This document shows, piece after piece, positions 7,057 through 50,872 of a stretch of 64,000 nucleotides of DNA. The notes beneath the pieces were generated by a model that was given only the letters and a program-made list of their open reading frames with translations, was not told the DNA's origin and ran no database searches. A program made the translations under genes and the position numbers. The first letter of the stretch is position 1. Each line of letters opens with the position of its first letter. This stretch comes from Akkermansia muciniphila (GTDB taxonomy: Bacteria > Verrucomicrobiota > Verrucomicrobiia > Opitutales > UBA953): contig CALQLO010000002.1 in assembly GCA_943331445.1 (NCBI GenBank), positions 1 through 64,000 on the forward strand. The letters are read 5' to 3'.

Positions 7057-7920
7057 GTGCTGAGGTTTTTCCTGACCATCTTCTTCGCTATCCTGGGCCT
7101 CGCCCAGCTCGGTGCGCAAACCACACCGCCAATCCGGATTGTGGCCAGCTTCACGATCCCCCATGAATGGTGTCAAGTTGCTGTTGGACAATCACTTAAT
7201 GTTAAATGTCTCGTTCCAGAAAAGAGCGAATTGCATGGCTTTCAACTCAGCGCCAAAGATGCCCAAAGCCTCGACCGGGCCTCGCTCATCATCGGGATGT
7301 CGCCCGACCTTGAACCATGGCTAGCGGCTTGGGTGAAAGCCAATCATCGGGAAGCAAAGGTTATCTGGCTTTCACCAGCCTCGCCCACGACAGATCCACA
7401 CCGGTGGACGGACCCCCAGGAGGCCCTCAAAATGCTCGAGGCCTTGCACCTGGCCTTGGGCCGATTGCTCCCGGGCGTAGCCTCCCCCCAGACGTATGAG
7501 CGCCAGGTGGCCGAAATGAAGGCGGTCGACCAAGACCTGAGTCGGCTCTTCAGCTCCCTGCCGGAAAACGCGCGGACGGTGATCACCCAGCATCCTAACC
7601 TGAGCTGGTTCGCCAAGCGCTACGGCCTGCGCATCGCTGACACCATCCTTGCGAGTGGTTCCGCTGAAGCGGCCGACCCCTCCGCCCGTCATTATTCAGA
7701 CCTACTCACCCAAATCCGCACCCAACAGGTGCGCGTCATCATCACCGACGAAGGCCAAAATGAGACCCTCGCCCGTCGCTTGGCCAAGGATGCAGCGATT
7801 CCCGCGCCCCTAGCCCTCTCCTTTGAATACCTCGAACCGCGCGGGCAGGATGGGGACTCCTGGGCGTCGATGATGCGACGCAACGCCCAACGACTCCACG
7901 CCGCCTTGATGACCCCATGA
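7057..7920 (+). CDS. Metal ABC transporter substrate-binding protein (ZnuA/TroA family)
   Basis: 287 residues from GTG. A signal peptide (about 1-20) is followed by a two-lobe metal-binding protein of cluster A-I. Candidate ligands sit in the usual order: His in SELHGFQLSAKDAQSL, His in DPHRWTDPQ, His in VITQHPNLSWFAKRYGL and the acidic residue in IITDEGQNETLARRLA. The His-rich loop common in zinc-specific ZnuA proteins is missing, so zinc and manganese cannot be told apart. The stop overlaps the start of the ATPase gene (ATGA), consistent with a three-gene operon. A palindrome upstream suggests metal-dependent repression. Confidence 0.9.
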   Translation: MLRFFLTIFFAILGLAQLGAQTTPPIRIVASFTIPHEWCQVAVGQSLNVKCLVPEKSELHGFQLSAKDAQSLDRASLIIGMSPDLEPWLAAWVKANHREAKVIWLSPASPTTDPHRWTDPQEALKMLEALHLALGRLLPGVASPQTYERQVAEMKAVDQDLSRLFSSLPENARTVITQHPNLSWFAKRYGLRIADTILASGSAEAADPSARHYSDLLTQIRTQQVRVIITDEGQNETLARRLAKDAAIPAPLALSFEYLEPRGQDGDSWASMMRRNAQRLHAALMTP

Positions 7921-8702
7921 GCGCCACTCCCTCCTCATGGCCGAGTCGCCTCAGTCGGGCGATGTTCGCACTACTCCCAACCTTACCTTATGCCCCGTCA
8001 GAGAAGGCCGGTTGCGGAGGCATTGCCATTCGCGCCACGAACCTCACCGCCCGCGCTCGTGCGGACGGACCCGTGGCGTTCCAAGATGCGAGCTTTGAAA
8101 TTCCCTGCGGCTGCCGCGCTGCGCTCATCGGACCTAACGGCTCCGGTAAATCCACCCTCCTCCGCGTCCTCGCTGGGCTAACGCGTGCGGAAAGTGGGAC
8201 CGTGCTCATCGGCGATGCGACCCCGCGGACTGGGCGCCGGCGAATCGCTTACCTCTCCCAGCGCCCGCACCTCACCGCCTATTTCCCGCTACGACTTCGC
8301 CGCCTAGTCCAAATGGGCACCTACGCCCACCACGGCTGGCTGGAGGAGTGCTTCCACGGCGACCAAGCCGTCGATCTAGCCCTCGAACGCATGGGCCTTA
8401 GCGAACTCTCTGATCGCCCGGTGCACACACTCTCGGGCGGGCAACTGCAGCGCGGGCTCATCGCCCGGGCCATCGTGCAGGGTGCCGAAATCCTGCTACT
8501 CGATGAGCCCTACGCAGCGCTCGATCAATCGAGTCGTGAAATCATCGACCGCTTTCTCTTCAGCCAAGGACAACACTTCACCGTCCTGATGGCGACCCAC
8601 GACCCGGCCGACCTCGCCCGCTTCGACCGTATCCTCGAACTGCGTGATCACGCCGTGACCACGCGACGCGCGTGCGACGGACACGGCCACCACCATGCTT
8701 GA
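7917..8702 (+). CDS. Metal ABC transporter ATP-binding protein (ZnuC type)
   Basis: 261 residues. Walker A GPNGSGKSTLLRVLAG near residue 73, signature LSGGQLQRGLIARAIVQ, Walker B ILLLDEPYAAL, and the switch His in MATHDP. The chain ends with a short His-containing tail (GHGHHHA). About 35 residues precede the first strand of the nucleotide-binding fold, an unusual extension; an internal start is possible. It overlaps the preceding gene by 4 bases and the permease gene by 8 bases, so the three subunits are translationally coupled. Confidence 0.93.
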   Translation: MSATPSSWPSRLSRAMFALLPTLPYAPSEKAGCGGIAIRATNLTARARADGPVAFQDASFEIPCGCRAALIGPNGSGKSTLLRVLAGLTRAESGTVLIGDATPRTGRRRIAYLSQRPHLTAYFPLRLRRLVQMGTYAHHGWLEECFHGDQAVDLALERMGLSELSDRPVHTLSGGQLQRGLIARAIVQGAEILLLDEPYAALDQSSREIIDRFLFSQGQHFTVLMATHDPADLARFDRILELRDHAVTTRRACDGHGHHHA

Positions 8703-9507: not shown

Positions 9508-9864
9508 TCAGCAGCGCGGCGGACGAAGTGCGAGCGGCGGGCCCAGCACCTCCCGGGCGATCATCGCGCGGCGCAAGGCGCCCCGGCCGCGAAAATCAGC
9601 ACACACCTTCGCATGTGCCGGGCGAGTGACCTGCAGATTACTGGCGTCGAGGTGCGTCGCGCCAAGCACGGGCGGCACCTCCGATACAGGCTCGGGACTC
9701 GACTTCAAAGCTGGCGGGCGAGTGCGGCGGGTGCGGCGCGGGATAGCGGGCGGCGCGATCGGGGCTGCCACCGTCTCGCGCGCCTTCATCACGTACTCAA
9801 CCAACGCCTTCACGATGGTGATGACGACAAAGACCAACCCGAGCGTGCCGATGCCCGCCTTCAT
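9508..9864 (-). CDS. Small membrane protein coupled to floA
   Basis: 118 residues: one N-terminal hydrophobic segment (about 5-25) followed by a Pro/Arg-rich basic tail. Its ATG overlaps the floA stop (TAATG), so it is probably translated by coupling. I do not recognise the family. The position suggests a cytoplasmic-facing partner of the FloA membrane domain; this is only inferred. Codon use is similar to neighbours. Confidence 0.6.
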   Translation of the reverse strand: MKAGIGTLGLVFVVITIVKALVEYVMKARETVAAPIAPPAIPRRTRRTRPPALKSSPEPVSEVPPVLGATHLDASNLQVTRPAHAKVCADFRGRGALRRAMIAREVLGPPLALRPPRC

Positions 9865-45029: not shown

Positions 45030-45100
45030 TAGTCCGACTAGGATTTGAACCTAGACAAGGAGAATCAGAATCTCCTGTGCTACCATTACACCATCGGACT
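45030..45100 (-). tRNA. tRNA-Gln (CUG)
   Basis: A 71-nt tRNA read on the minus strand. Acceptor AGTCCGA/TCGGACT, D arm around GGTGTAATGGTAGCAC, anticodon loop TTCTGAT with anticodon CTG on a GGAGA/TCTCC stem, T arm around CTAGGTTCAAATCCTAG, discriminator A. No encoded CCA. The overall sequence matches the bacterial tRNA-Gln pattern (…CCGATGGTGTAATGG…). Confidence 0.93.
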
Positions 45101-45600: not shown

Positions 45601-46029
45601 TTACTTCCTCTTCTTCGGCTTCTTGGCGACCTTCGGCAACAAGGCTCTCAACAGCCTCGTGGCCTCTTCGCGATCAATCTTCGAGTCGGCGATTGCAAAG
45701 GTGAGCTGCTCCCATTTGACCGAATCAGGCTTCGGCTTCACGCCATTCAAGCGGAGAAAGACCAAGGCCGCACCCAAAGCCGTCCGTTTATTCCCATCCA
45801 GAAACGGGTGATTCCGGCAAAGGTAGAAAAGATAAGCCGCCGCGACTTCAGCGAGATCTGCAAACGGCGAGAAACCTCCGATGGTGACCTGCGGGGCCGC
45901 GACGGCGGATTCCAGTAACGAAGGTTCGCGCAGGCCGTCGGCACCGCCGAAACCCGCCAGTGCCGCCGCATGGATTTCACGAACGATTTCCACCGAAAGG
46001 TGGAAGCAATTCTCCGGCGTGATCTTCAC
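45601..46029 (-). CDS. Doc-family (Fic fold) toxin
   Basis: 142 residues. The Fic/Doc motif is HPFLDGNKRTA (His74, Asp78, Asn80, Lys81, Arg82), in the HxFxDGNKR form of Doc kinases, which phosphorylate EF-Tu. YLFYLCRNHPFLDGNK continues as usual. An Arg/Lys-rich tail (KVAKKPKKRK) extends the C-terminus. It overlaps its antitoxin gene by 4 bases (ATGA). Doc is normally paired with a Phd antitoxin; here the partner is an AbrB/MazE-type protein. Confidence 0.93.
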   Translation of the reverse strand: MKITPENCFHLSVEIVREIHAAALAGFGGADGLREPSLLESAVAAPQVTIGGFSPFADLAEVAAAYLFYLCRNHPFLDGNKRTALGAALVFLRLNGVKPKPDSVKWEQLTFAIADSKIDREEATRLLRALLPKVAKKPKKRK

Positions 46030-47408: not shown

Positions 47409-48086
47409 ATGAGCTCGTTCGTCCTCATCTGCGCCCAGGCCATCGGGGTCGTCGTGCTCGCTGACTTCATCTCCGGCCTCGTCCATTGGCTGGAGGATGC
47501 TTACGGCACGGAAACCACGCCGTTGGTTGGCCCGCTGATGATCCGCCCTAATATCGTCCACCATCACTATCCTCGGCATTTCACGAAGCTCAATTGGTGG
47601 CAAAGCTCCTGGGACCTCGTGCTCCTCGGCATCGTCCTCATCGGGGCCACCGCCTGGGCTGACGTGCTGACCTGGCATGTCGGGCTGTTCGTCGCCATCT
47701 GCGTCAACGCCAACCAAATCCACAAGTGGTCCCACCAGACGCGGGCCGAGAACGGTCGCATCGTCTCGTTCCTGCAAGACATGCATCTGCTCCAGACGCC
47801 GCGCCAGCATGGCCTGCACCATACGGACCCCAAGAACACCTACTATTGCCCGATCACTAATATGGTGAACCCAGTGCTAGAATTTATCGGCTTCTGGCCG
47901 AAGATGGAAGCGGCTGTTGAAGCGCTCACCGGCGCCACCCGCCGGACCGATACCTCCAACCGCGGCGAGGGCCCAGTCCCCGCCTGGGTTGCCGAACTCC
48001 GCCGCACCTCGCCCACTCATGTGCATGACCTCAGTTCCGCCCACCGCCCCGCCGCAATGAAAGCGACGGATGCAGAGAGAAGTTAG
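47409..48086 (+). CDS. CarF/PEDS1-family plasmanylethanolamine desaturase
   Basis: 225 residues from ATG at 47409; the longer frame to 47256 overlaps lysR and lacks similarity. Two to four membrane segments. His motifs: His26 (GLVHWLED), His51-53 and His57 (VHHHYPRHF), His105 and His109 (IHKWSHQT), His126, His134 and His137-138 (HGLHH). These are the ligands of the CarF/TMEM189 family, which makes the vinyl-ether bond of plasmalogens. Myxococcus CarF is needed for light-induced carotenoid genes. The neighbouring LysR gene suggests control. Ends 4 bases inside the convergent rtcB 3' end. Confidence 0.85.
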   Translation: MSSFVLICAQAIGVVVLADFISGLVHWLEDAYGTETTPLVGPLMIRPNIVHHHYPRHFTKLNWWQSSWDLVLLGIVLIGATAWADVLTWHVGLFVAICVNANQIHKWSHQTRAENGRIVSFLQDMHLLQTPRQHGLHHTDPKNTYYCPITNMVNPVLEFIGFWPKMEAAVEALTGATRRTDTSNRGEGPVPAWVAELRRTSPTHVHDLSSAHRPAAMKATDAERS

Positions 48087-49510
48087 CTACCTTCTTCCCG
48101 GTCGACTTCATTGCGTCCAGCCATGCGAACAATGCGGGGGTGGAATTCCGCGAGGACATCGACCAGTTCTGACTGTGCGGCCATGACCGAATGGATATCC
48201 TTGTAGGCCCCTGGCGCCTCATCTAGTCCGCCACCGAGTAATTCGACGTTTCCGGCCAGTAACTCCTGATCTCGTTGCGCTTCAGTTATAGATTTGAACG
48301 CATCACGACGCGACATGCGACGACCGGCGCCATGTGATGCTGAGCTCAACGAATCAGCTCCCCCTTTACCACGCACGAGGAATCCAGGCGTAGCCATCGA
48401 TCCGGGAATGATGCCTAAGACGCCGGGCGCAGCTGGCGTTGCTCCTTTCCGATGAACATAGAGCTCCTTGCCTCCATGAGTCTCCTTCCAGGCGTAGTTG
48501 TGATGGTTGCTGATAGCACGGATGGGAGTAAGTTCTGCTAAGCGAATAACCGTATCATGGATGACCTGATGGTTGGCTGCCGAATAGTCCCCTGCCAATT
48601 CCATCGCATCCCAGTAGGCCTGACCTTCCTCGGTATCCATGTTAAGCCAGGCGAGTTCCTCATATTCCTTAGGTAGCTTGTTCATCTTACCGGCCAGCTC
48701 TGTAAAGAAGTTAGCGACGCGGAAGCCCAGAGCACGAGATCCGGAGTGACTGAGTAAAGCGAGCCAACGACCTGCGGGGATGCCGTCGGTCTGCTCAGTC
48801 AACACGAGTTCACCGAATTCGACGAAGTGATTACCGCCGCCCGAACTTCCGAACTGCTTCGCGGCCCACTCACGCGTACCCCTCGAACGGCAGAACTTTT
48901 CAATGCGCTTAAAACGTAAATCATCAAGTAAAGGATGCTCTGACAAAGGGGCTTCCCTCAGGCTTCTCCCGAAGTAGGTGCCATTCAGCAGGGAGGCCTT
49001 GAGCCTTTCACGCAGGGCGGTGATACTGGACGCCGATTCCGTGAAGACGGTGAGGTGCATGCGGCAACCAATGTCGACACCAACCGCAAAAGGCATGACC
49101 GCTCCTTCCGTAGCGGCGACACCACCGATTGGCATACCAAAGCCGACATGTGCATCCGGCATAAGCGCCCCAGAGACAACCGGTCCAAGGCTCATGACTT
49201 TGGCCATCTGATTGTGCGCGCTCTCCTCGATGCTTTCCGACCCGAAGACCTTATATGGTAGTGGTGCAGAGCGTGGCTCGATTAAGCGATGGCGACGACT
49301 CTCCTTAGCCACTTCCTCGCGGACGGCCTCGAGCTCGGCCCAGAGTCCGACCTGTGGCTGCTCTGGAGCAGCTAAGAGGGTCGCGATTGCCTCCAAGAAG
49401 CCTGGCTCGTCCACACAACGCATGCGGCGCAGGCGACCAGCCAGACGTTTAGCGACGAATTCGTCTAAGGTGCCGAGATGAGCCAGGATGGTGTTATAGT
49501 CGGGAGGCAT
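48083..49510 (-). CDS. rtcB: RtcB family RNA ligase
   Basis: 475 residues, near the length of archaeal RtcB. Metal and active-site motifs: PDAHVGFGMPIGG (about 118-130), VGVDIGCR with Cys149, GGGNHFVEF (His228), HSGSRALG (His255), HHNYAWKE (His337) and SHGAGRRMSR, whose His393 is the one guanylylated in this family. It joins 2',3'-cyclic phosphate and 5'-OH RNA ends using GTP and Mn2+. No archease gene is next to it. It is preceded by a 178-residue unknown gene (52-base gap) and a long region with tRNAs and structured repeats, which suggests that the group repairs or handles tRNAs. Confidence 0.92.
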   Translation of the reverse strand: MPPDYNTILAHLGTLDEFVAKRLAGRLRRMRCVDEPGFLEAIATLLAAPEQPQVGLWAELEAVREEVAKESRRHRLIEPRSAPLPYKVFGSESIEESAHNQMAKVMSLGPVVSGALMPDAHVGFGMPIGGVAATEGAVMPFAVGVDIGCRMHLTVFTESASSITALRERLKASLLNGTYFGRSLREAPLSEHPLLDDLRFKRIEKFCRSRGTREWAAKQFGSSGGGNHFVEFGELVLTEQTDGIPAGRWLALLSHSGSRALGFRVANFFTELAGKMNKLPKEYEELAWLNMDTEEGQAYWDAMELAGDYSAANHQVIHDTVIRLAELTPIRAISNHHNYAWKETHGGKELYVHRKGATPAAPGVLGIIPGSMATPGFLVRGKGGADSLSSASHGAGRRMSRRDAFKSITEAQRDQELLAGNVELLGGGLDEAPGAYKDIHSVMAAQSELVDVLAEFHPRIVRMAGRNEVDREEGS

Positions 49511-49562: not shown

Positions 49563-50099
49563 CTAGGAAAGGCGATACGCCCTCACCATCTGATCGGCGG
49601 CGGCGCAGGCAAAGTCAGCCAAATCAGCGCCCTCGCTGCGAACGCCTCCGGTTGCGATTTGAAATATGAATTCCTCGAAATCCATACGGCGAAGGTCAAC
49701 GTCGGGGCCAACAGGAAGCCTTTCAGCGCATAAACGAGGAATCTTAGCGAATGATTTCCAGGCCATGCGCGCAAGCGCGACATCCCGACGAAGCAAGGTA
49801 GCAAAGGCGGCGATAGGCCAGATTACGCAGCCACGTATATTGCAGATGCAGTGCGTCTCCCGGCGTAGGTTAGGTCCGAGGATCAAGGCAGCGCCCTTTA
49901 GGAAGGCGACAAGCTCAGCATCGGTCAGCGCCTCGACATCACCGACCGCAGGCTCCGCCTCGACAGTGGAACCAACAGGGATGAGCGAGGTGAGCGCTTC
50001 ATTCCCGGTATAAGCGGCGATGAGCGAGGTGCGGACTTTCGACTTAGGCAACATGCCGATGATGACGATGTGGCGGAGGATTTCGGCTTTGGTGGCCAT
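49563..50099 (-). CDS. Unknown protein encoded before rtcB
   Basis: 178 residues, mostly alpha-helical with a Cys pair in the middle (THCICNIRGC, about residues 83-92). N-terminus MATKAEILRHIVIIGMLPKSK, C-terminus AAADQMVRAYRLS. I do not recognise a domain. It is not a TROVE/Ro protein, archease or RtcA. It is the first gene of the likely rtcB operon and follows the structured RNA region. Its codon use is close to its neighbours apart from a few rarer codons. Could be an RNA-binding partner or regulator of the ligase; this is speculative. Confidence 0.6.
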   Translation of the reverse strand: MATKAEILRHIVIIGMLPKSKVRTSLIAAYTGNEALTSLIPVGSTVEAEPAVGDVEALTDAELVAFLKGAALILGPNLRRETHCICNIRGCVIWPIAAFATLLRRDVALARMAWKSFAKIPRLCAERLPVGPDVDLRRMDFEEFIFQIATGGVRSEGADLADFACAAADQMVRAYRLS

Positions 50100-50192: not shown

Positions 50193-50337
50193 ATAGGCTC
50201 GGTTACTACTAACCGACTTACGTCCCGTGGTGCTACTACTCACGTCGGGGAACCTATTTTGATGGTCCAATTAGGTAGGATTCGTAGTCCGCCAAGGTGC
50301 CAAACAAAGTTGAAGAACCTGTAAGACCAGAGGACAA
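50193..50337. ncRNA. Structured repeat copy 1 (three-way junction plus second module)
   Basis: First module 50193-50257, given as plus strand: ATAGG ... CCTAT closing stem, hairpin TCGGTT/AACCGA, linker CTTACGT, hairpin CCCG/CGGG with inner GTG/CAC, then GAA. Second module 50258-50337: GATGGTC, hairpin GGA-TTCGTAG-TCC, and a 3' part GAACCTGTAAGACCAGAGG that pairs through TGGTC/GACCA. The hairpin loop read on the minus strand is CTACGAA, an anticodon-like loop with ACG. About 80% similar to copy 2, with sequence changes concentrated in paired positions. Transcribed strand unknown. Confidence 0.6.
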
Positions 50338-50393
50338 GCGTACCAAGGCTTATGTGTGAGGTACTGTCCTACCGTCAGTATGGTTCCAAATTC

Positions 50394-50473
50394 AGGGCAG
50401 ATAGGCGTATCGAGGTCGTGATGCGATACCTTGCGTCCCTATCAATTAAGGGAACCTATGGTTCTTCTGCCCT
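50394..50473. ncRNA. Structured repeat copy 2 (divergent, first module only)
   Basis: Module 50401-50459 keeps ATAGGC, a first hairpin of different sequence (GTATCG/CGATAC), the linker CTTGCGT, a shorter second hairpin (CCCT/AGGG) and AACCTAT. It is enclosed by a further stem, AGGGCAGA (50394-50401) with TCTGCCCT (50466-50473). The hairpin arms share no sequence with those of the other copies, yet pair perfectly; this is what makes RNA structure likely. It borders the CCA end of the tRNA-Pro gene. Confidence 0.55.
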
Positions 50474-50477
50474 TAGA

Positions 50478-50552
50478 TGGTCAGCCAGACAGGACTTGAA
50501 CCTGCAACCCCCTGCTCCCAAAGCAGGTGCAATACCATTATGCTACTGGCTG
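50478..50552 (-). tRNA. tRNA-Pro (UGG) with encoded CCA
   Basis: 75 nt with CCA. Acceptor CAGCCAG/CTGGCTG, anticodon stem CCTGC/GCAGG with loop TTTGGGA (anticodon TGG, G37), T stem GCAGG/CCTGT with loop TTCAAGT. C1-G72 and A73 are the ProRS recognition set in bacteria. The body is unlike the usual bacterial tRNA-Pro, which begins with CGG; the anticodon and T arm look more like a phage-borne tRNA. Confidence 0.85.
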
Positions 50553-50559
50553 ATTGAAG

Positions 50560-50631
50560 TCGTCAGAGAGGGAGTCGAACCCACATCTCTCGGTTCGTAA
50601 CCGAGCGCTCTTTCCATTGAACTACCCGACG
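50560..50631 (-). tRNA. tRNA-Arg (ACG)
   Basis: 72 nt without encoded CCA. Acceptor CGTCGGG/TCTGACG (with two G-U pairs), D arm GTTC-AATGGAAA-GAGC, anticodon stem CTCGG/CCGAG with loop TTACGAA (anticodon ACG), T stem GTGGG/CCCTC with one T-T mismatch and loop TTCGACT, discriminator A. A20 and A73 fit arginyl-tRNA synthetase recognition. The mismatch and G-U pairs are unusual for a housekeeping tRNA. It lies 8 bases from the tRNA-Pro gene. Confidence 0.82.
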
Positions 50632-50729
50632 TAAATTATTTGTATCACTTTGCAGTCACGCCTCAACGTGATGTCACACCCTCCTGCGCGTACGATACAT
50701 TCGTCTACACTATGTTTATGAAAGTGATT

Positions 50730-50872
50730 ATAGGCCCATGGAATGGCTTACGTCCCGTGGTGCTACCAATGCACGTCGGGGAACCTATCTTGATGGTCAT
50801 AGGGAGGATTCGTAGTCCACCTAGATTTCATACAAGATGATTAAGGAACCTGTAAGACCAGAGGACAAGATA
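50730..50872. ncRNA. Structured repeat copy 3 (three-way junction plus second module)
   Basis: First module 50730-50788: ATAGG/CCTAT, hairpin CCAT/ATGG (736-739, 743-746 within 50700), linker CTTACGT, hairpin CCCG/CGGG with GTG/CAC inside, and GAA. Second module to 50872: CTATCTTG (50785-50792) pairs with CAAGATAG (50865-50872), TGGTC pairs with GACCA, hairpin TAGG..GGA-TTCGTAG-TCC..CCTA inside. A 24-base stretch beginning GAACCTGTAAGACCAGAGG is identical to copy 1. Confidence 0.6.

Follow-up and report, generated by a model that had tools for sequence, protein, structure and literature searches.

The stretch of Akkermansia muciniphila DNA analysed here (64,000 nucleotides in full, called the window) contains a short motif in three copies, next to an RtcB RNA ligase gene and two tRNA genes. 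An earlier note, made from the letters alone, had proposed that the motif is an RNA whose structure is under selection. Is it an RNA, where does it come from and what could it do at this locus?

Three copies of a three-way junction on the minus strand

The three copies of the three-way-junction (3WJ) motif were present exactly where the earlier note had placed them. The note had written the motif on the plus strand, and here we had to correct it. The RNA strand is the minus strand, because R1, a covariance model built from copies 1 and 3 only, scored copy 1 at 92.1 bits on the minus strand versus 8.3 bits on the plus strand, one junction pair is U.G in all 13 distinct aligned members (the plus-strand equivalent would be A.C), and RtcB, ORF178 and both tRNAs lie on the minus strand as the motif does. 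Read on this strand, the motif has the order ATAGGTTCCC - hairpin - GGGACGYAAG - hairpin - GCCTAT. The features of the locus are given below; R2 is a covariance model trained on the tRNA-linked form only.

48083..49510, minus strand: RtcB RNA ligase (PF01139, 264 bits)
49563..50099, minus strand: ORF178, with its ATG 93 nt after copy 1
50193..50257, minus strand: copy 1 (C1) of the 3WJ RNA, R1 92.1 bits
50258..50345, minus strand: upstream module of C1, with about 65 consecutive bases (about 50315-50379) identical to phage
50401..50459, minus strand: copy 2 (C2) of the 3WJ RNA, R1 27.9 bits, R2 42.1 bits
50195..50557, minus strand: stretch of tRNA-Pro, C2 and C1, sharing 314 of 368 columns (85%) with phage contig L036
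50478..50552, minus strand: tRNA-Pro (TGG), 98.7% (74/75) identical to the phage tRNA
50559..50631, minus strand: tRNA-Arg (ACG), closest to the host-relative array L026 (81% over 64 nt)
50730..50788, minus strand: copy 3 (C3) of the 3WJ RNA, R1 80.0 bits
50789..50869, minus strand: upstream module of C3
50960..51060, minus strand: element S, structured and distinct from the 3WJ copies, heading the non-coding stretch, with the helix GCCUGAGGGCGG/CCGCCCUCAGGC

In C1 the helices are P1 AUAGGU/GCCUAU, P2 CCCG/CGGG with an inner GUG/CAC, and P3 UCGGUU/AACCGA, with ACGUAAG as J2/3. C2 has P2 CCCU/AGGG (CCCC/GGGG in the phage copy) and P3 GUAUCG/CGAUAC, and the P3 of C3 is CCAU/AUGG. C1 and C3 lie within longer duplicated units (50193-50338 and 50730-50869), which have CTTGTCCTCTGGTCTTACAGGTTC and GGACTACGAATCCT in common on the minus strand. 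C2 is without the upstream module and follows shortly 3' of tRNA-Pro. A UGGUC/GACCA stem was seen by eye 5' of C1 and C3 and was considered as a Ro-binding helix formed from RNA ends.

Folding of the single sequences gave minus-strand z values of -3.0 for C1 and -0.7 for both C2 and C3. The minimum-energy fold was the 3WJ for C3, nearly the 3WJ for C1 and a different fold for C2. Single-sequence folding is weak evidence, and the support for the structure comes from comparison. A sigma-70-like promoter match on the minus strand (51272-51244, 10 of 12 positions) lies upstream of the non-coding stretch; with three promoter-like sites in the region versus a shuffled mean of 1.7, it is suggestive only.

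The motif is not a chance product and has no Rfam match in the loci tested

R1 recovered C2, which it had not been built from, at 27.9 bits (E 6e-6), with the next match at 14.2 bits. The pattern GGTTCCC N8-34 GGGACGYAAG N9-39 GCCTAT occurred three times in the genome, always at this locus and on the minus strand; the 371 other genomes searched from the order had none, and the reversed-pattern control also gave 0. In a strictly filtered R1 search of 79 family genomes, which missed C2, the only strong matches were C1 and C3 of this genome, and two other genomes appeared at E 0.03-0.04. The strict motif pattern found nothing in a collection of 84,980 species, which may omit this genome and whose search used a pattern that C2 would not fit. 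As judged from these searches, the three-copy motif is not a product of chance.

In the Rfam 15 comparison the motif had no match in the window at the gathering threshold or at E up to 5, none in phage contigs L036 and L050-L052 at gathering or in L036 4395-4640 at E up to 10, and none in the late-gene phage contigs L055, L056 and L058 at E up to 5; its scope omits L065, L066, L094-L120 and L122. In the loci tested this bears out the earlier view that the motif belongs to no known family, and leads us to reject identity with a known riboswitch, ribozyme or sRNA. GGGACGCAA has a loose likeness to the c-di-GMP-I riboswitch, and that family gave no Rfam match. A tRNA identity was rejected, as ARAGORN and RF00005 called the neighbouring tRNAs only. 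A Y RNA identity had been suggested by the locus in relatives and was rejected with no RF02553 match in the window and no Ro60 match in the genome; the same type of search finds a YrlA RNA elsewhere, in contig L027. A literature search, which covered the candidate-RNA surveys incompletely, found no such motif named, and it may have been described before.

A probable phage cassette in the host locus

A scan of viral contigs with the window motif returned one phage contig, IMGVR_UViG_3300027754_003212 (L036). Its match to the window runs through tRNA-Pro, C2 and C1 and includes an identical run of about 65 bases. The window tRNA-Pro, which differs from the phage tRNA at a single position, is 75% identical over 71 nt to the tRNA-Pro of a host relative. 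Because tRNA-Pro, C2 and C1 are nearest to phage while tRNA-Arg is nearest to a host-relative array, the locus has the look of a mosaic in which a phage cassette sits inside a host tRNA/RtcB locus. The transfer probably went from phage to host, since eight phage contigs and one host genome carry the motif. When one protein of L036 was searched against 79 host-family genomes, a single weak match was found in another genus (E 5e-6). A similarity search with L036 gave tRNA matches in the best 20 of 93 records, and the pattern TCCTCTGGTCTTACAGG matched 11 contigs, among which only L036 carries the motif and the others are unrelated by inspection.

The tRNA-linked form in phages

We found one form of the motif linked to tRNAs in eight phage contigs (L036, L050, L051, L052, L065, L066, L100 and L105) with 14 copies. 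These contigs are metagenomic and may be fragments. Some copies are identical among contigs (L051a and L052a; L100 and L105), and two are weak (L051b, 17.3 bits; L066b, 11.1 bits, E 1.6). The main copy of the six phage contigs found first scored 53-65 bits with R1, so the covariance-model search that the earlier note had proposed does find homologues outside the window. The window copies belong to this form, in which P3 is short and has no U-run.

Seven of the eight contigs have a same-strand tRNA 20-167 nt upstream of the element, and 12 of the 14 copies, some of them identical between contigs, end at a distance of 15-40 nt from a following ATG. Two ORFs recur after these copies, one membrane-like of 32-39 aa and one of 65-67 aa. 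The exceptions are L036a, where the next thing downstream is another unit, and L065a, where the first ORF of at least 30 aa comes at 185 nt and a 29-codon ORF is seen by eye about 50 nt away. In the window, C1 lies 93 nt from ORF178; C3 precedes a tRNA and C2 another unit, neither directly before an ORF.

The membrane-like ORF (MNKxQI..LWVVAL..) stands just after the element in L036, L050, L051, L052, L066, L100 and L105. The other strand of the L052 record holds a further weak R2 match (G377:C1:22383-22438, plus strand, 15.8 bits, E 0.04).

The paired arms change together

The alignment A9 contains 16 matches up to E 0.06, of which 13 are distinct, with L066b excluded. Compensatory changes were present in all four helices, and 14 of 20 pairs had changed on both sides. 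Such both-side changes filled 44 cells versus a mean of 14.9 in shuffles, and 95.4% of cells were paired versus 77.6%, in an alignment that was fitted to the model, which favours structure, and whose rows are related to one another. On four of five measures none of 500 shuffles reached the observed value, and on the fifth, further pair types, 2 of 500 did. When the partners were slid by 1-3 columns, pairing was at most 43.8%. Changes in P1, P2 and P3 can be seen directly between the window, L036 and L052b. In this alignment the P1-P2-P3 fold of the proposed 3WJ phage family is backed by covariation. The earlier claim of selection on RNA structure is supported here, with homologues beyond the window and shuffle controls that the covariation passed.

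These changes also bear on whether the motif might be a mobile repeat or packaging signal at the DNA or RNA level, with no functional transcript element. By the searches made, it is found in phages and one host genome only, and with several copies per locus, which would suit such a repeat. The earlier note had named hits inside mobile repeats without RNA evidence as a reason to give up the RNA reading. A mobile cassette of phage origin does hold the copies, but it is the phage family itself that supplies the RNA evidence. Both the compensatory changes and the U.G pair, which is strand-specific and present in 13 of 13 members, point to RNA, and the copies are placed at ribosome-site distance from start codons, so that a mere repeat is scarcely credible to us.

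A late-gene form with a terminator-like arm

Pattern scans gave a second form in 18 phage contigs with 15 distinct elements, in the order GGGTTCCC - hairpin - GGGACGCAAG - long hairpin - U-run - G-CCC. The search patterns impose GGGTTCCC and GGGACGCAAG; they leave free P3, the outer pairs of P1 and the G-CCC strand that closes it. P1 and P2 were in the minimum-energy fold of 12 of the 15 distinct elements (cut at P1). As for the exceptions, in L110 the register of P1 pairing is shifted, L094 takes another fold, and L118 gives the full fold when cut correctly. In L095, L101, L109 and L113, P1 is little more than GGG/CCC. By inspection, P3 looks like an intrinsic terminator hairpin; in L118 the terminator scan picked out only a weak hairpin within P3, not P3 itself. 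The apex of P3 recurs by eye as X-GGWGCC-X'-ACC-X'', in which X is pairable with X' or X'', a possible alternative pairing. A tRNA scan of L055, L056 and L058 found none.

The distance to the next start was 11-38 nt in 13 of 16 distinct rows (the 15 elements and BK063671.1, see below). It was 75 nt in L055, and the script misassigned it in L056 and L118. We compared ten flanking proteins from seven contigs with PHROGs, and six matched head or connector families (head scaffolding, head-tail adaptor, portal, head maturation protease twice, and major head protein). Of the remaining four, one had phrog_3742 (function not annotated) as best match and a protease family as second, two matched families without assigned function and one had no match.

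With default filters, R2 recovered the element in 9 of the 16 late-gene loci that it was given (11.9-21.6 bits); with filters off it did so in all seven loci given (17.6-30.2 bits). The two forms are likely homologous; we go no further than likely because the late-gene patterns imposed GGGTTCCC and GGGACGCAAG.

One member was reached by similarity, independent of the motif pattern. BK063671.1 is a tailed virus whose record gives Methanomicrobiales as host, and it came up as a weak similarity match from L113 (E 0.04). Its element lies in the intergenic sequence CCGGGTTCCGG...CGGACGCAAG...TTTTTTATTGCCCGG; the genes upstream are a head-tail adaptor and two small ones, and those that follow are phrog_3742 and the major head protein. 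P1 is extended, and P2 is CCG/CGG in place of the pattern-fixed CCC/GGG. R2 gave 15.2 bits (E 0.06), the best match of that locus. P1 was not seen in folds of three sub-stretches, each of which was without part of the P1 5' strand.

Several candidates were set aside. The later pattern scan matched 31 contigs, of which 18 were late-gene, three tRNA-linked and ten dropped (L096, L097, L102, L103, L104, L107, L111, L115, L116 and L120), with no downstream U-run or closing CCC by inspection. The dropped L102 still scores 15.4 bits with R2 (E 0.35), cut off at the contig end. In L102 (1-74, minus strand) and L104 (8226-8277, minus strand), GGGTTCCC-hairpin-GGGACGCAAG stands shortly 5' of an apparent ribosome-binding site and ATG; with no visible P3 or closing P1, they are possibly partial members. 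L053, L054, L057 and L059-L064 from the first pattern scans were also dropped on inspection, and the genome-contig matches L092 and L093 had no 3WJ in their fold. Similarity matches in one Streptomyces, one Faecalibacterium and one Arthrobacter phage (one record each) lacked the motif by inspection. Similarity searches with the L055, L098 and L118 elements gave nothing in the phage collection.

A probable folded leader before phage genes

Both phage forms stand before a ribosome-binding site or start codon, which argues for a leader acting in cis. We hold, with slightly better than even confidence, that the motif belongs to a tailed-phage RNA family whose members serve in cis as folded 5' leaders, and that it was captured with a phage tRNA in the host RtcB locus. 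The unit folds as a 3WJ with an outer P1, P2, the fixed linker GGGACGYAAG and P3, closed by G-CC, and in phages it directly precedes the next gene's ribosome-binding site or start codon. In the late-gene form P3 is terminator-like in appearance, and the closing 3' strand of P1 comes after the U-run in the sequence order, so that P1 can form only in read-through RNA. Terminator activity of P3 does not follow from this order; we infer it, as we do transcription of the element and the coupling to read-through. The element would then limit entry into the downstream gene, and the closed P1 would cap or stabilise the leader of the read-through mRNA, while a protein or ligand may make contact at the fixed linker. 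In the tRNA-linked form, where P3 is short and has no U-run, only a role as folded leader or transcript end would remain. C2 and C1 would have come into the bacterial RtcB locus together with the phage tRNA-Pro.

Candidate leader RNAs such as GP20-a and GP20-b reportedly precede phage head genes. Their likeness to our motif is one of position, a structured RNA before a phage scaffold or head gene. The manA and wcaG motifs (PMC2864571) are also structured RNAs carried by some phages; they are reported from cyanophages, near metabolic genes, whereas the 3WJ motif lies near virion genes or tRNA-linked small ORFs and has no Rfam match.

A phage riboswitch that senses a ligand, with the linker GGGACGYAAG and the junction as pocket and the P3 terminator as expression platform, would account for a near-invariant linker in a 3WJ, a terminator-like P3 and the position 5' of the ribosome-binding site. 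The constancy of the linker is, however, partly imposed by the search patterns, the downstream genes tested (virion genes, proteins without an assigned function or small membrane-like ORFs) share no metabolite theme, and no Rfam riboswitch matched. We consider a riboswitch quite improbable.

The put RNAs of phage HK022 are processive antitermination elements that bind RNA polymerase. As short cis RNAs near terminators in phage transcripts they resemble our motif, which lies at hairpins resembling terminators, at the entrance to late genes. In the 3WJ motif, however, the terminator-like hairpin is nested inside the junction and not placed after it, unlike in the put RNAs, and the tRNA-linked form is without a terminator-like P3. 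An element of the put kind is therefore very improbable. The cis-acting leader remains the reading that we favour.

The host RtcB locus and its relatives

The window copies adjoin tRNAs and RtcB, and this makes a role in trans the main rival to the leader. The motif would then be a stable non-coding RNA of the tRNA/Y RNA world, tRNA-like or a decoy from a tRNA operon. Its partner would be RtcB, joined by Ro60 in relatives, and its task the repair of damage done by anticodon nucleases or protection against it.

ORF178 had no Pfam or NCBIfam family above cut-off and no PHROG. Its homologues adjoin Ro60 in L006 and L007 (57 genomes searched, three with a match, this genome included); the ORFs at its place in L025 and L026 were assigned by position and length only. 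Ro60 was found in 4 of 55 genomes searched in the genus, this one included in the search (G004, G026, G082 and G086), and as a partial match in G063, of another genus (E 6e-16). In our own genome (G000, 94.8% complete, so that a Ro60 gene may have been missed) neither PF05731 nor the Ro60 protein of a relative gave any match; this genome thus has RtcB and ORF178 with no Ro60 match. RtcB matched in G000 and G086 within the genus, marginally in G014, and not in G004, G026 or G082, so three of the four Ro60 genomes are without detected RtcB. ORF178 and RtcB may have a role in the host.

ARAGORN called tRNA arrays in L006 (6), L025 (12) and L026 (7). In these Ro60-bearing relatives (L025 7900-10430, L006 7100-8600, L026 6600-8215) tRNAs are mixed with degenerate tRNA-like stretches and with others that resemble Y RNAs by eye (CGAGCCGA...TTGCTCG), some of the latter forming a hairpin set within a tRNA-like anticodon arm (L025 about 9712-9830). 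The Ro60 gene of G082 is split across two reading frames (L026 4785-6475, minus strand). Contig L027 (G063), from a genome of the same taxonomic family, holds the partial Ro60 match, a YrlA Y RNA (RF02553, 7529-7657, 77.5 bits) and RtcB in one stretch. At L027 7380-7900 a tRNA match overlaps YrlA between the partial Ro60 match and RtcB, and the ORF just after YrlA resembles RtcA by eye. The likeness of our motif to YrlA is one of neighbourhood in some relatives (Ro60, RtcB, tRNAs); YrlA consists of a Ro stem and a tRNA-like domain, whereas the window motif is a 3WJ with no YrlA match.

Other elements of these loci were seen in passing. Element S has relatives at L006 8457-8542 and L025 about 7960-8025, with a long GC-rich helix in which two pairs have changed on both sides among the three sequences. 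L006 also carries two units of about 190-210 nt (7776-7962 and 8031-8240, minus strand; ATAAGGTT/GGCCTTAT) with a 3WJ-like fold beside tRNAs. They looked like relatives of the motif by eye and by RNAalifold on the two sequences, and were rejected, with only 9.1 bits (E 2.5) from R2 for one of them. Elsewhere in the window, an ORF of the Fic/DOC family (45601-46029) lies near a tRNA-Gln (45030-45100).

For the trans-acting RNA speak the two tRNAs and RtcB next to the window copies, the same-strand tRNA 20-167 nt upstream in most tRNA-linked phage contigs, the Ro60, ORF178 and tRNA arrays that some relatives hold at the locus, and the position of C2 and C3, which are not directly before an ORF. 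Yet the elements match neither tRNA nor Y RNA, the genome has no Ro60 match, most phage copies lie just 5' of start codons, and the scanned late-gene contigs L055, L056 and L058 have no tRNA. We regard the trans-acting role as unlikely, and keep the cis-acting leader as our main reading.

What the family may mean for phages and for the RtcB locus

A wider claim can be built on the leader, and we think it doubtful. The motif would be a widely spread, phage-specific regulatory RNA in which an intrinsic terminator is nested as an arm of the 3WJ and the closing helix forms only after read-through. It would first limit and then protect the late-gene mRNA and be sensed via the near-invariant GGGACGCAAG linker, with one lineage captured to govern a bacterial RtcB locus.

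Our results point to a structured RNA family of tailed phages without a match in the RNA library used. Several phage contigs, and one virus whose record names an archaeal host, carry it before portal-, scaffold- and capsid-proximal genes, and the element would be a testable control point for late gene expression. In Akkermansia muciniphila, it appears as a phage tRNA/RNA cassette within a bacterial RtcB locus, at which some relatives keep Ro60 and large tRNA arrays.
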